From Iamia majanohamensis (GTDB taxonomy: Bacteria > Actinomycetota > Acidimicrobiia > Acidimicrobiales > Iamiaceae): a stretch of 64,000 nt of DNA. The notes beneath the pieces were generated by a model. It was not told the DNA's origin, made no database searches, and saw only the letters and a program-made list of their open reading frames with translations. The position numbers and the translations under genes were made by a program. This document shows positions 1,929 through 9,401 of this stretch, piece after piece (position 1 is the stretch's first letter; the number at the start of each line of letters is the position of its first letter). The stretch is from assembly GCF_028532485.1 (NCBI RefSeq), contig NZ_CP116942.1, positions 4,216,001 to 4,280,000 on the forward strand, read 5' to 3'.

Positions 1929-4529
1929 TCAGCTCGGCGCCACCGCCACCTGCATGCGACGGGTGAACGCGGCGGCGACCTCGGCGGCGTGGGGGTCGTT
2001 GAACAGCCGGTCGTGGGGGGCGTCGAGGTCCAGGACCTCCACGCCGTCCGTGGTGTGGGGAGCCCAGCCCACGTCGTGGCCGGGGGGGCCCGGCACCCTG
2101 CGGGTCGAGCGGACGACGAGGGCCTGCCCCTCGAAGCGCCCGGTGGGCCGGTAGTCGAGGGTGAGGCGCCCGTAGGCCTGGAGGACGACGTCGGACCGGG
2201 CCCTCCCCTGGCGCTCCCACCACGGCCGGCGCCGGCGGGTCGCCGCCCGGGTGGCCGCCCGGCGGGCGACCCTGACCGCCTCGGGGACCCCTCGGCGCAC
2301 GCCCATCGCCAGCAGGGCCCCGGCCCGGTGCCGGGCGCGGGGGCCGCTGCCCCGGACGAGCTGCTGCGGATCGGTCACCGGCCCGTCCGGCCCCAGGCCC
2401 ACCACCCCCGGGGGCAGCGAGTCACCGATGCCGAGCAGCCCGACCGCCCCCCCGTCGTGCTGGAGCTGGAGGGCCATCTCGAAGGCCACCAGCCCTCCGA
2501 AGGAGAGCCCGGCGAGGTGGTGCGGCCCGTCGGGCCAGACCTCCCGGACCTGGCCGAGGTACCGCGTCGCGAGGGCGGGGATCGACGGGTCGGGGGGCCG
2601 GCCGTCGACCAGGTCCGGCGCCCGGATGCCGTAGACGGGCTGGTCCCGACCGAGGTGGCGGGACAGGTCCCGGGCGAAGAGCACCCCGCCCGCCCCGGCG
2701 TGGACCACGAACAGCGGCGGCCGGGTGCCGTCGACCTGCACGGGCACCAGCAGCGAGTCCTCCGGGAGGGCGAGGGCGATGGCGAGCTGGGCGACGGTGG
2801 GGGCCTCGAGCAGCAGCGACACCGGACGGGCCGGGCCGAGCTCACGCTCGATCTCGGCGAAGAGCCGCACGGCGCGCATGGAGTCGCCACCGACCTCCCA
2901 GAAGTCGTCGTGGCGGCCGATGTCCGTGCGCCCCAGCACCCGCTGCCAGAGGTCGAGGAGGGCCCCCTCCCGCTCCCCCTCGGGGCGGTCCGTCGCCTCC
3001 CCGTCCTCGGGCAGGGTGGCAGGGTCGGGCAGGGCACTGCGGTCGACCTTCCCGTTGGCCAGCTGGGGCAGGGCCGCCACCACCGAGGTGCGCTCGGGGA
3101 GCATGTGGGGGGGCAGGCGCCGGCCCAGGGCGAGGCGGAGGGACCGGTGGGTCACGTCGGTCCCCGGCGCGGCGGTGACGTAGGCGACCAGCCGCACCTG
3201 GCCGTCCGGGCCGGTGTGGGGCCGCACCGCGCCGTCGGCGACGCCGGGGGCGGCGCGCACGGCCGCCTCCACGTCGCCCAGCTCGACGCGGTGGCCCGAC
3301 ACCTTCACGACGTGGTCCAGACGCCCCTCGACGTGCAGGACCCCGTCGGCGTCGAGGTGGCCGGCGTCGCCGGTGCGGCAGCGGCGACGCCCGTCGCCGA
3401 GGTCCTCCCAGGTCGACCGGGTGAGGTCGGGCCGGCGCCAGTAGCCGAGGCCCACGCCCGCGCCGGTCACCACCACCTCGCCCGTGCGCCCCGTGGCCAC
3501 CGCGTGCCCGTCCTCGTCGACGACCTCGACCTCGACGCCGGGCACGGGCCGGCCGGCCGGGAGGAGGCCGCGCCCGAGGGCGTCGTCCGCACCGACGTCG
3601 AAGGTGGAGATCGACCCCGTCTCGGTGGTGCCGTAGCTGTTCTGCACGACCGCCCCGGCGGGCAGGTGCCGACGCAGGCCGGCGACGTCCTCCCACGTGG
3701 GCGCCTCGCCGGCCATGACCACGATGCCGAGGCGGGGGAAGGTGCGGCCCTCGTCGATCGTCGGCAGCAGGAAGCGCAGCACCGTCGGCACCGTGGCCAT
3801 GGCCTCGATGCGCTCGTCGTCGAGCCAGTCCGGCATCGGGCCCAGGCCCAGGCGGCGGATGTCGTAGGCGACGATCGTCCCCCCGGTGAGCAGGATCGCC
3901 TGGAGGAGGGCCTCGGTGAAGCCGACCGTGCCCACCGACAGCACCCCGACCCGGAGCCCCTCCGGGAAGGAGGACCGGCAGAGGGCCTCGACCTGGCGCC
4001 GCTGCTCCGGGCTCACCATGATCCCCTTGGGGACGCCGGTGGACCCCGACGTGAACAGCACGGCGATGGGCTCGTCGGCCGGCACCTCCGGCGGGACCAC
4101 GGGCGCCGGGGCGGGCGGCAGGTCGGACGCGGGGTCGAGCACGGGCACCCCGTAGCCCGCGTCGGGGTCACCCACCACGTCGCTCAGCAGGACCGCGGGC
4201 TCGACGTCGTCGAGCACCAGCCGGACGCGGTCGGGCGGTGCCGTGGGGTCCACGGGCACCGACACGCCGCCGGCCCGCAGCACGGCCATGGAGGCGACGA
4301 GGACGGAGCCGGTCCCGTCGAGGCGGAGGGCGATGCGGTGGCGCCCGGGGCCGAGGCGGGCCACGAGGGTGGCCGCCAGCGCGTCCACCCTGCGATCGAG
4401 CTCGGCGTAGCCGGTGACCACCCCGCCCTCGACCACCGCGACCCGGTCGGGGTCCGTGCGGGCGAGGTCGCGCAGCCGCTCCGAGGGGGTCGGGCCGGTG
4501 CGGCCCGCGTCGTCGATCGTCACTCCCAC
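1929..4529 (-). CDS. NRPS-like single-module enzyme: adenylation, carrier, thioesterase (A-T-TE)
   Basis: 866 residues. The adenylation domain occupies about 1-500, with the P-loop-like TSGSTGVPKG at about 160-169, an NSYGTTE core at about 297-303, TGD at about 387 and the NGKVD lysine motif at about 492-496. A carrier domain at about 525-590 has the GGDS phosphopantetheine site with Ser550. A thioesterase fold from about 600 has the nucleophile in GLSFGG (Ser676). There is no condensation domain, so it does not make peptide bonds in the standard way; free-standing A-T-TE enzymes activate one acid and release or dimerise it. A phosphopantetheinyl transferase gene diverges from it across 80 bp and is the obvious activator. 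The substrate is not predicted. Confidence 0.9.
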   Translation of the reverse strand: MGVTIDDAGRTGPTPSERLRDLARTDPDRVAVVEGGVVTGYAELDRRVDALAATLVARLGPGRHRIALRLDGTGSVLVASMAVLRAGGVSVPVDPTAPPDRVRLVLDDVEPAVLLSDVVGDPDAGYGVPVLDPASDLPPAPAPVVPPEVPADEPIAVLFTSGSTGVPKGIMVSPEQRRQVEALCRSSFPEGLRVGVLSVGTVGFTEALLQAILLTGGTIVAYDIRRLGLGPMPDWLDDERIEAMATVPTVLRFLLPTIDEGRTFPRLGIVVMAGEAPTWEDVAGLRRHLPAGAVVQNSYGTTETGSISTFDVGADDALGRGLLPAGRPVPGVEVEVVDEDGHAVATGRTGEVVVTGAGVGLGYWRRPDLTRSTWEDLGDGRRRCRTGDAGHLDADGVLHVEGRLDHVVKVSGHRVELGDVEAAVRAAPGVADGAVRPHTGPDGQVRLVAYVTAAPGTDVTHRSLRLALGRRLPPHMLPERTSVVAALPQLANGKVDRSALPDPATLPEDGEATDRPEGEREGALLDLWQRVLGRTDIGRHDDFWEVGGDSMRAVRLFAEIERELGPARPVSLLLEAPTVAQLAIALALPEDSLLVPVQVDGTRPPLFVVHAGAGGVLFARDLSRHLGRDQPVYGIRAPDLVDGRPPDPSIPALATRYLGQVREVWPDGPHHLAGLSFGGLVAFEMALQLQHDGGAVGLLGIGDSLPPGVVGLGPDGPVTDPQQLVRGSGPRARHRAGALLAMGVRRGVPEAVRVARRAATRAATRRRRPWWERQGRARSDVVLQAYGRLTLDYRPTGRFEGQALVVRSTRRVPGPPGHDVGWAPHTTDGVEVLDLDAPHDRLFNDPHAAEVAAAFTRRMQVAVAPS

Positions 4530-4609
4530 CAGCCCTCACCTCTCGTCCGCCCCGCGCCGGAGAGCGTACCCCGGCCACGAGGCGGAGGGCCCCTGGCTAC
4601 CGTGCGGCG

Positions 4610-5254
4610 GTGGCCCTCGCCGCGGTCGACGTGCAGCTGGTGCCGGTGGACGGTGCGGGGCCGCACGACGCGGACCTGGCCCTCCTGCCGGTCCGGGAGC
4701 GGGACAGGCTGGCGCAGCGGCGCGACCCGGCCGACCGCCACCGCTCGGCGGCCGCCCACGCCGCTCTCCGCCGCCTGCTCGGCTCGCGACTCGGGCGGGA
4801 CCCGGCCGACGTCGAGGTGGGGCGCAGCGAGACGGGGGCGCTGGTCGTGGGCGAGCAGGGCTGGTGGGCGTCGGTCGCCCACAGCGCGGACCTGGCCGCG
4901 TGCGCCCTGGCCCGCCGGCCGGTGGGCGTGGACGTCGAGGGGGCGTCGCCCCCCACCGATCCCGCGGCCCTGGCCCGGTGGTGCTCGCCCGCCGAGGTCC
5001 GGGCCCTGGGGAGGGCCTCGCCGACGGGCCGGGACGCGGCCGTGCGCCGCGCCTGGGCGCGGAAGGAGGCGGTGGCCAAGGCCCTGGGCGCAGGGCTGGC
5101 CGTCCCCTTCGCCGACCTCGACGTGCGGCACGCCCTCGTACGGGTCCCCGGTCGCCGGCGCCCGGTCGCAGTGCGCGACGTCGACGTGGGCCCGGGCCGG
5201 TCGGGGGCGGTGGCCCTCGACCACCTCTGGGTGGTGGTGCGCACCCGGCGGTGA
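4610..5254 (+). CDS. 4'-phosphopantetheinyl transferase, Sfp type
   Basis: 214 residues from a GTG start. The Sfp/Gsp signatures are present: VGVDVEG (metal-binding Asp/Glu) at about 103-109 and WARKEAVAKALG at about 143-154. The SVAHS segment at about 87-91 matches the CoA-binding region. It transfers the phosphopantetheine arm of CoA to a carrier-protein serine. Its divergent partner across a shared 80-bp promoter region is the A-T-TE enzyme whose Ser550 needs exactly this modification, so a dedicated pair is likely. The length is typical of compact actinobacterial members. Confidence 0.9.
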   Translation: MALAAVDVQLVPVDGAGPHDADLALLPVRERDRLAQRRDPADRHRSAAAHAALRRLLGSRLGRDPADVEVGRSETGALVVGEQGWWASVAHSADLAACALARRPVGVDVEGASPPTDPAALARWCSPAEVRALGRASPTGRDAAVRRAWARKEAVAKALGAGLAVPFADLDVRHALVRVPGRRRPVAVRDVDVGPGRSGAVALDHLWVVVRTRR

Positions 5255-6064: not shown

Positions 6065-6964
6065 TCACCCGAGGCGCTCGGTCGGGTAGCCGGCGTAGGA
6101 CTCCTTGAACACCCCCGAGTGCAGCAGCACCGAGGCCACGTCGACGCCGGTGGCGGTGTCGGTGACGGTGGTGCGCACCCAGTAGGACTCGGTGCGGCGG
6201 CTCTGGCCCAGGGCCACCACCTCCCGCACCAGGGCGTACTCCTGGCCCACGAGGAGGGGGCCGGCGAGGAGGCGGACCTCCAGGTCGAGGAAGAGGCCGA
6301 GGGCGGGGCCCCGCACCGGCAGGTCGACCCCGGTCTTCTGGGTCAGGACGCTGGCCATCTCGAAGGGCAGCACCGGCCGACGCCACGGCGTGTCGGTCGA
6401 TGCGTACCAGGGGCTGGGCTCGGTGATGGCGTCGAGCTTCCGGGCCAGGGAGAAGGGGTACAGCGGGCCGTTCCCGTCGTCGGCGGTGATCGTCGCCGGC
6501 GGGGACTCGATGCGCTGGCCCACCTCGAGGCGGTCGACGATGAACAGCTCGCCGGGGTCGCCGATGCCCGCCAGGCGCCGGTCGAGCTCGCTCTCGGCGG
6601 TGGGGTCGATCGAGGCGGTGCCGGTGAGCACCTCGGCCCCGTCGGGCTTGCTGGCGGCGATGCGCGCGACAGGGCCGCCGTCGGTGCGGAGGGTGGCGGT
6701 GACCTCCTCGCCGTCGACCACCATGGTGCGGAAGTGGGCGCTCACGCAGCCGGTCTCGAACCAGCGCGAGCCCCACACGGCGACGGCGAGGGGGTCGATC
6801 TGGGAGAGGTGGGTCGGGCCCTCGATCGGGGCCCCCGAGAGGCCGAGGGAGCCCGCAGTCGCCTCGTCGTGGACGCTGGCGTGGCCGTCGTAGCTCTGGT
6901 CGTCGAGCAGCTGGCGGGGACGGCGGGCGGGGCCGGTGAGGGTGATCGGGGTGGTGAACGTCAT
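6065..6964 (-). CDS. Hotdog-fold (MaoC-like) protein of unknown function
   Basis: 299 residues, taking the ATG at 6964 because the fold begins immediately there; a longer in-frame extension to 7078 is low-complexity. The N-terminal half (SYDGHASVHDE, then APIEGPTH) resembles a hotdog/MaoC-type acyl-thioester domain, and a second similar half appears from about 170, suggesting a double hotdog. The catalytic Asp-His pair of enoyl-CoA hydratases is not clearly seen, so hydratase activity is not claimed. It is divergent from the esterase gene at 7051 across 86 bp. Confidence 0.6.
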   Translation of the reverse strand: MTFTTPITLTGPARRPRQLLDDQSYDGHASVHDEATAGSLGLSGAPIEGPTHLSQIDPLAVAVWGSRWFETGCVSAHFRTMVVDGEEVTATLRTDGGPVARIAASKPDGAEVLTGTASIDPTAESELDRRLAGIGDPGELFIVDRLEVGQRIESPPATITADDGNGPLYPFSLARKLDAITEPSPWYASTDTPWRRPVLPFEMASVLTQKTGVDLPVRGPALGLFLDLEVRLLAGPLLVGQEYALVREVVALGQSRRTESYWVRTTVTDTATGVDVASVLLHSGVFKESYAGYPTERLG

Positions 6965-7997: not shown

Positions 7998-9401
7998 GTG
8001 GGGGTGCCGGACCCGACCGAGGCCGAGGCGCTGGCCGACGAGGTGCAGCGGCTGCGCGAGGAGCGCGACCGGCTGGCCGACGAGACCGCCCGCCTCGACC
8101 GGCGGCTCCACGGCGGGCGCACCCGGCGGGTGCTCGTGGGCACCCTCGTCGTGCTCACCTGCCTCTCCTTCCTCGCCGCGTCGACGGCGTTCTGGGTGAA
8201 CCGCAACCTCCTCGACACCGACGTGTGGGTCGGCCGCGTCGCACCGCTGGCGTCGGACCCGGCGGTGCAGGCGGCCCTGGCCGACGCCATCACCGCCCAG
8301 GTGCTCGAGGTCGTCGACCCCGAGGCCCTCTTCGAGGAGGCCCTGCCCGAGCGGGGCCAGGTGCTGGCCGGCCCCCTGGCCGGGGTGGTGGACTCCTTCG
8401 TGGCCGACGTGGTGCGGAGGTTCGTGGCCTCGGACGCCTTCGCCGAGCTCTGGACCAGGCTGAACGAGCAGGGGCACCGCAGCGCGGTGGCGCTGCTCCG
8501 GGGCGAGGACCCCGACTCGCCGCTGGTGGACGCCGACGCGGGGACCGTGACGGTCAGCCTCGTGCCCGCCATCGACGCCGTCCTGACCCGGATCTCCGAG
8601 GTCAGCCCGGAGGTGCTGGGCCGCACCGTCGACCTCCCCGAGCTGCAGGTCGACGACCTCCCGGACGCGGCCCGCGCCGAGATCGGCGACGCCCTCGGCG
8701 TGACCCTCGACGACGACTTCGGGGTCATCACCGTCTACGACGGCGACGCCCTGAGCGCGTCCCAGACGGTCCTGCGGTGGTTCGACCGCCTGCTCGTCGT
8801 CTCCACCCTGCTCACCCTGGCCCTGCTGGCCGCGACCCTGGCGATCTCCCGCCAGCGCCGCCGCACCGGCCTCCAGCTCCTCGTGGGGTTCGCCCTCGCC
8901 CTCGTGCTGGTGCGGCGGCTCGCGCTCCGGCTGGTCGACGACGTCGTCGCCCTGGCCCAGGTCCCGGGCGACCAGGCCGCCCTCGACGCCATCCTCCGCG
9001 CCTTCGCCGACCCCCTCCTCGATGCGACCGGTTGGATCCTCGCCGCCCTCGGCGCTGCCGTCGTCGTGCTGCTGGTCTCGGGCCCGTACCCGTGGGCCCG
9101 GGCGCTGCGTGGCGGTGTCGCCGGGCTGGCCCGGGGGACCGCCGGCGCCGCGCAGGGGGCCGCGGGGGCACTCGGTGACCAGGGCCGCCAGGACGCCGCC
9201 GTGGCCTGGGTGCGTCGCCGGTCCACCGCCCTGCGGGCCGCCGGCCTGGTGGTCGCGGTCGCCGTGCTGTGGTGGGGAGACCTCTCGTGGCTCGGCCTCG
9301 TCGTCCTCGTGGCCCTCGTGGGCGCCTGGGAGATCTGGCTCCGGCGCCTGGTCGACGTGAACCGGAGCGCGGACGAGGCCAGCACCGCCTCTGCGACCTG
9401 A
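7998..9401 (+). CDS. Integral membrane protein with N-terminal coiled coil
   Basis: 467 residues starting at GTG 7998 (GTG 8004 is also possible). Residues 8-38 form a charged coiled coil, residues about 46-68 a first membrane helix, then a large soluble, probably extracytoplasmic, domain to about 255. A set of four or five hydrophobic helices follows (about 260-280, 292-312, 338-362, 418-450). I do not recognise a catalytic motif; the layout matches uncharacterised actinobacterial membrane proteins. A run of GTAGAAQGAAGA residues near 378-390 forms a Gly/Ala-rich linker. Confidence 0.75.
   Translation: MGVPDPTEAEALADEVQRLREERDRLADETARLDRRLHGGRTRRVLVGTLVVLTCLSFLAASTAFWVNRNLLDTDVWVGRVAPLASDPAVQAALADAITAQVLEVVDPEALFEEALPERGQVLAGPLAGVVDSFVADVVRRFVASDAFAELWTRLNEQGHRSAVALLRGEDPDSPLVDADAGTVTVSLVPAIDAVLTRISEVSPEVLGRTVDLPELQVDDLPDAARAEIGDALGVTLDDDFGVITVYDGDALSASQTVLRWFDRLLVVSTLLTLALLAATLAISRQRRRTGLQLLVGFALALVLVRRLALRLVDDVVALAQVPGDQAALDAILRAFADPLLDATGWILAALGAAVVVLLVSGPYPWARALRGGVAGLARGTAGAAQGAAGALGDQGRQDAAVAWVRRRSTALRAAGLVVAVAVLWWGDLSWLGLVVLVALVGAWEIWLRRLVDVNRSADEASTASAT

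Follow-up and report, generated by a model that had tools for sequence, protein, structure and literature searches.

A stand-alone adenylation–carrier–thioesterase enzyme, its substrate pocket suggestive of a non-amino acid, next to a phosphopantetheinyl transferase gene in Iamia majanohamensis

The 64,000-nt stretch of Iamia majanohamensis contig NZ_CP116942.1 between positions 4,216,001 and 4,280,000 (assembly GCF_028532485.1; hereafter the window, numbered from its first letter) carries on its reverse strand a gene with a GTG start (1929–4529) for a monomodular protein of 866 amino acids resembling non-ribosomal peptide synthetases (NRPSs), in which an adenylation (A), a carrier or thiolation (T) and a thioesterase (TE) domain follow one another. 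A Sfp-type 4′-phosphopantetheinyl transferase (PPTase) of 214 amino acids is encoded divergently, on the forward strand (4610–5254), across an intergenic region of 80 bp (4530–4609). Tentatively, and with slightly less than even confidence, we interpret the A-T-TE protein as a stand-alone NRPS-like synthetase by which an acid other than an amino acid would be activated, loaded and released by the TE, most likely by the joining of two units. At the level of sequence, this interpretation is based on the domain order, the predicted catalytic residues, the loss of two residues typical of amino acid-activating domains (the Asp at GrsA position D235 and the Pro of the A5 motif) and a genome without any condensation-domain match over cut-off; the substrate class, the dimerisation and the modification of this carrier (and probably that of a paralogue) by the PPTase are what we infer.

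The reading frame matches the Pfam families AMP-binding, AMP-binding_C, PP-binding and Thioesterase, in that order. The A-domain core (PF00501, residues 22–364; 3438–4466; E = 9e-56) has the motif TSGSTG at residue 160, while its C-terminal subdomain (PF13193, residues 420–494; 3048–3272; E = 1e-7) includes the catalytic lysine, K494. The carrier domain (PF00550, residues 523–584; 2778–2963; E = 4e-13) has its predicted phosphopantetheine attachment site, Ser550 (codon 2880–2882), in the motif GGDSM. The TE domain spans residues 597–866 (1932–2741), with a proposed triad of S676 (2502–2504), which is part of GLSFGG (residues 674–679), D703 (2421–2423) and H839 (2013–2015), the last two assigned by alignment to nine relatives. 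Hence, the residues expected for catalysis are present in all three domains. The sequence-only reading of this DNA had already described a complete mini assembly line facing a Sfp-type transferase, with no condensation domain, and these descriptions agree with the Pfam order, the motifs and the gap between the genes.

The match to Pfam Thioesterase (PF00975, E = 2e-20) is confined to residues 605–709, the first half of the domain. An AlphaFold2 model of residues 597–866, built from 18 alignment rows, has a mean confidence (pLDDT) of 85.8, dropping to 52–78 in a lid-like middle part, and it matches solved NRPS as well as fatty acid synthase (FAS) and polyketide synthase (PKS) thioesterases over nearly the full length (best match 7crn, E = 7e-17, TM-score 0.69, root-mean-square deviation 8.9); because of this, the TE looks complete. 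The best-ranked solved structures are epimerising/cyclising TEs and the nocardicin TE, while the TEs of Pks13 and fatty acid synthase match too.

Among the 25 of 106 NCBIfam matches listed, none reaches the cut-off of its model (best TIGR01733, 247 versus 317 bits). In a PDB sequence search, the best alignment is with LgrA. The termination modules of SrfA-C, EntF and AB3403 also align over their A-T-TE part (e.g., residues 31–700 with 4zxh), but these C-A-T-TE modules have a condensation domain, which the window protein lacks. Its architecture (A, T and TE in order, no condensation domain) is that of the non-reducing NRPS-like synthetases.

In the mechanism we propose, the PPTase would attach phosphopantetheine to Ser550 of the carrier; the A domain would adenylate a carboxylic acid without an α-amino group, most likely an α-keto or α-hydroxy acid, and load it onto the carrier; and the TE would take the acyl group onto S676 and release the product, most likely with two units joined through a C–C or ester bond, otherwise by hydrolysis.

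The pocket of the A domain was read in two registers. Read against LgrA with the A4 motif kept ungapped, the specificity code is G203 F204 A207 A245 V271 A273 S298 S306 I307 K494, and Gly203 occupies the position of GrsA D235. The MAFFT alignment places a gap in A4, so that the first two code residues become Thr205 and Glu206, the third is empty and the fourth changes from Ala to Met. The Asp is missing in both (Gly203 or Thr205). Gly203 would agree with the small or aliphatic residue that replaces the Asp in keto- and hydroxy-acid A domains, and Thr205 would not; the A4 helix begins at V202 in the AlphaFold2 model of the A domain (19 alignment rows, mean pLDDT 88.1), which favours the Gly203 register. 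The A5 motif is VVQNSYGTTET, i.e., YGTTE replaces YGPTE, with Thr301 instead of Pro.

D235 of GrsA binds the α-amino group. According to a review (PMC11253843), two hydroxy-acid A domains have a small aliphatic replacement there: Ala in engineered TycA and Gly in EnSynA1. The keto-acid domain of StsA has Ile at that position, and Met where amino-acid domains keep a conserved Pro (PMC11253843); from the LgrA numbering, we read this Pro (StsA M415; LgrA P483) as probably that of YGPTE. As the D235 Asp and the A5 Pro are both missing, a non-amino-acid substrate is favoured, and the pocket is suggestive of an α-keto, α-hydroxy or other non-amino acid. Two other classes of A domain described in the same review differ from the window protein: aryl-acid domains (DhbE/EntE) have the A5 motif QQVxFMAEGL, absent from it, and β-amino-acid domains of the VinN type keep an Asp at 235 that binds the β-amino group, which it lacks in either register, although its bulky F204 at position 236 would fit. 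The only PDB match of the A4–A5 stretch at E ≤ 0.1 is 8xjz (E = 2e-6), a domain whose A4 is alike and also free of Asp, and whose A5 reads YGLTE; we found no paper on 8XJZ in the open-access literature.

Relatives of the A-T-TE protein were sought in three sets of genomes: 61 genomes of relatives including its own (up to 15 candidates scored per genome), of which 13 have a match at E ≤ 1e-40; 395 genomes of the class (up to two candidates per genome), 15 of them with a match at E ≤ 1e-80; and 100 genomes of the phylum (up to nine candidates per genome), where its own genome alone matches at E ≤ 1e-90. In no other genome of these sets does identity exceed 39%. A scan of genome contigs, with seeds that reach close relatives only, gave seven distant loci. 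Judged by sequence, no close relative of the enzyme was thus found in the genomes searched; its type is already known. On plasmids, 960 records match at E ≤ 1e-15, with E-values reaching 2e-68 and the best-ranked being 37% identical; in two records that were inspected, the matching region is part of a larger NRPS.

The alignment and the midpoint-rooted tree include 23 A-T-TE regions, i.e., the window protein and 22 loci from the relative and class sets. Twelve loci of the relative set were omitted, among which only L011 reaches the TE (query residues 22–731), the other 11 ending at or before residue 590. The window protein falls into a group of nine (support 100/99) with L050, L049, L061, L002, L004, L014, L053 and L056, the last five of which form a sister subgroup with moderate support (88/83). 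The D235 Asp is found in none of the nine group members but in 12 of the 14 other rows, and the same counts apply to the A5 Pro; for L004, L058 and L062, the A4 and A5 motifs were read from the MAFFT alignment. The five sister proteins thus resemble the window protein in architecture, group and the missing Asp and Pro; they differ by being only 34–36% identical to it, by the code AVYxxGGVxK and by the amidohydrolase(s) and/or carbamoyltransferase encoded alongside. L061 is a frame of 1202 amino acids with no Pfam domain ahead of the A domain and is, in effect, another A-T-TE. Outside the group, the stand-alone A-T-TE proteins L055 and L010 keep both Asp and Pro; the architecture alone, therefore, does not imply a changed pocket. 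The exact place of the window protein in the tree is uncertain because its amino-acid composition deviates from that of the alignment and its branch is long (1.38).

The genome consists of a single contig of 4,576,919 bases (completeness 99.4). In all of it, the condensation-domain family PF00668 has nothing over cut-off, with one weak match (E = 1e-3) some 6 kb from the PKS gene mentioned below, and the MbtH family (PF03621) has no match; a single-unit or self-condensed product is, therefore, likely. Activation and release or self-condensation of one acid, as the sequence-only reading had it, remains the natural interpretation.

The PPTase (PF01648, E = 2e-14) has VGVDVE at residues 105–110 and WARKEA at 149–154, as well as the length of about 200 amino acids or more that goes with the Sfp type; no NCBIfam equivalog matches it above its cut-off. 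Three matches to the PPTase superfamily occur in the genome: a 166-amino-acid open frame, probably AcpS as judged from its size, the window PPTase and a copy fused to a PKS. The latter is encoded in L034 (7467–11993) as a protein of 1508 amino acids with ketoacyl synthase, acyltransferase and dehydratase domains and the PPTase domain near its C-terminus. The window PPTase is, thus, the only free-standing gene of the superfamily besides the probable AcpS. A second, paralogous A-T-TE (L014) lies 0.94 Mb away, without a PPTase found in its 19-kb stretch. For these reasons, we consider, from gene content, that the window PPTase probably serves the carriers of both.

It is accordingly quite possible, and compatible with the synthetase interpretation, that the PPTase is the general Sfp-type enzyme of the strain and that its adjacency to the A-T-TE gene is one of coincidence or convenience: besides its being the sole free-standing copy, there are seven carrier-domain matches in the genome, the second A-T-TE among them. 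Against this, it is not a conserved gene of the genus: of the 61 genomes, 15 (its own included) have a relative of it with E ≤ 1e-5, and the genus is represented among them by its own genome alone, the remaining three having none. When the neighbourhoods of 11 A-T-TE loci (10 stand-alone and L061; 6.4 to 20 kb each) were searched for PPTases by tblastn (three PPTase queries, E ≤ 1e-4) and a motif scan, which a very divergent PPTase could escape, only that of the window has one nearby. The idea of a synthetase with its "own" transferase, put forward from the sequence alone, stands as regards adjacency, but exclusive use is improbable given the likely sharing with the paralogue.

Among known systems, the closest in description are bacterial NRPS-like synthetases of keto acids and their fungal equivalents. 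EchA and RalA have the architecture A-T-TE. In Streptomyces sp. LZ35, polyporic acid is described as the product of the NRPS-like EchA (PMC9047271), and RalA and EchA are presented as bacterial counterparts of fungal synthetases (PMC10316625). The window protein is likened to them by description and not by sequence. At code position 5, either Ile or Val is found in synthetases of polyporic acid (PMC10316625); the A domain studied here has Val (V271), a residue that is compatible with phenylpyruvate but no more than that. The fungal non-reducing NRPS-like synthetases, which make quinones and furanones, are eukaryotic; they are likewise compared by description, and the code overlap with them is known only at position 5.

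Several points weigh against a self-condensing keto- or hydroxy-acid synthetase. The kinship to RalA and EchA is, as said, descriptive; the eight other members of the group are only 33–36% identical to the window protein; the code GFAAVASSIK has not been matched to any experimentally defined code; and no supplier of keto acids was recognised among the nearby genes. Moreover, Val or Ile at position 5 also occurs in amino-acid domains (I299 in GrsA), and a residue other than Asp at the D235 position is compatible with amino acids, given that McyG has Val there and yet activates L-Phe (both PMC11253843). It is improbable that the window protein represents a divergent branch of a group of A-T-TE enzymes, nine genes of the class here, which lost amino-acid recognition and which, in a genome without condensation domains, would make a new class of small self-condensed acids, the TE setting the linkage and the PPTase acting as a dedicated or genome-wide switch.

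A rather unlikely alternative to self-condensation is suggested by the surroundings of the relatives: the A domain would load a non-amino acid, and the TE would transfer it to a hydroxyl or amine of a sugar, a lipid or another acceptor. In the sister subgroup, a carbamoyltransferase is a neighbour in three of five loci (L014, L002 and L056). Amidohydro_2 proteins (Pfam) of one type occur in four (L002, from which the query protein was taken, and L004, L053 and L056 at 63–68% identity), and a second amidohydrolase in three (L002, the query, with L053 and L056 at 56–58%). The L004 contig is only 6.4 kb long, and L014 has no amidohydrolase match. These sister loci, where a sulfotransferase (L105) and a DegT aminotransferase (L107) occur as well, could be decoration loci, and the match of the TE model to Pks13 and fatty acid synthase TEs would suit an acyl donor as well. 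Carbamoyltransferase and amidohydrolases were, however, not found in the stretch of the genome that contains the window pair (L032), the support for the sister branch is moderate and the top-ranked solved TEs are those that epimerise or cyclise, along with that of nocardicin. The same pattern bears on whether homologues sit in a larger cluster that is missing here, which would undermine a minimal system: this is partly so, with a recurrent amidohydrolase or carbamoyltransferase neighbour in five of the eight other group members, yet these are only 34–36% identical to the window protein. In the L049 locus, a 26% amidohydrolase match lies about 8 kb away.

A gene set of this composition recurs in the class: an A-T-TE with the code AVYxxGGVxK is accompanied by a carbamoyltransferase and/or Amidohydro_2 protein in the genome under study (L033, 8743–13408) and in L035, L037, L105 and L107. 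We found no description of an A-T-TE, carbamoyltransferase and amidohydrolase gene set in the open-access literature. In L103 (5006–9975), an A-T-TE of the same group is in a row with a pyridoxal phosphate enzyme (PALP) and with a flavoprotein of the DAO type, a possible source of a keto acid. The starts of genes at the loci were taken from our own codon-score predictor, which performs poorly on loci of lower G+C content (L042, L043).

We regard it as distinctly improbable that an α-amino acid is activated despite the missing Asp, and that the TE hydrolyses it or forms a diketopiperazine or an oligomer. McyG provides a precedent, and the solved folds closest to the A-domain model are amino-acid A domains, although it is our impression that such domains make up most of the solved A-domain structures. 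Two pocket positions, however, differ jointly in all nine group members, and the genome is devoid of a condensation domain over cut-off.

Co-directional with the A-T-TE gene and 103 bp downstream of it is a gene for a protein of the phosphotriesterase (PTE) family (PF02126; 836–1825, reverse strand). In our view, it is very unlikely that the two genes form a pathway, with the A-T-TE protein producing a lactone or furanone whose ring the PTE-like enzyme would open or close. The arrangement of the genes would permit it, the PTE family includes lactonases and the NCBIfam phospho-furanose lactonase model matches the protein with E = 1e-15, but far below cut-off. At E ≤ 1e-40, the PTE gene is present in 15 of 31 genomes, its own included (46–79% identity in the other 14), and in six loci of relatives no A-T-TE was seen adjoining it, the contigs of two (L097 and L101) ending near the PTE gene. 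In L098, the protein of 536 amino acids beside the PTE gene is 27.9% identical to the A-T-TE. In L099, of the same genus, the PTE gene and homologues of the kinase/regulator pair flanking the window PTE gene are 1.7 kb apart; consequently, the PTE gene probably belongs to an old neighbourhood of which the A-T-TE/PPTase pair would be a newer member. We thus hold the PTE gene unlikely as a tailoring partner, as relatives keep it without an adjoining A-T-TE. The earlier remark that tailoring genes are missing overlooked this co-directional neighbour, but is probably right in substance.

Beyond the sequence-only reading, the analysis points to a pocket for a non-amino acid, places the protein in a group of relatives, finds no condensation-domain match over cut-off in the genome and makes it probable that the PPTase is shared. 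A group of A-T-TE proteins without the amino-acid anchor, in a genome free of condensation domains by that cut-off, would widen bacterial NRPS-like chemistry, and the Acidimicrobiia are described as underexplored for biosynthesis (PMC8692599). A synthetase and its activating enzyme make a self-contained two-gene system that is easy to express, and substrate and product could be resolved with one purified protein.

Between −11 kb and +14.7 kb of the pair, no larger biosynthetic cluster was recognised, nor was a condensation domain found by Pfam in the neighbouring genes tested, i.e., all but L032 1–246 and 3099–3488 on the left (short or cut off) and one gene of 75 amino acids on the right. Pfam families on the left are an ABC transporter, Polyketide_cyc2 (cyclase/lipid transport), a TauD-type dioxygenase, TetR, MOSC, cation efflux, a phosphatase, a peptidase and a histidine kinase with its response regulator; those on the right are a phosphoribosyltransferase, an esterase, a LuxR-type regulator and a sulfatase. 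A role of the A-T-TE, PPTase and PTE proteins in a defence system was rejected, as PADLOC gave no match to any of them at E ≤ 0.001. Two proteins of 299 and 467 amino acids, encoded at 6065–6964 and 7998–9401 of the window, have no Pfam match at E ≤ 0.001. Further away, the G+C content drops to 0.60–0.67 between 36001 and 44000, compared with 0.70–0.80 over the remaining window, and this stretch is possibly an acquired island.

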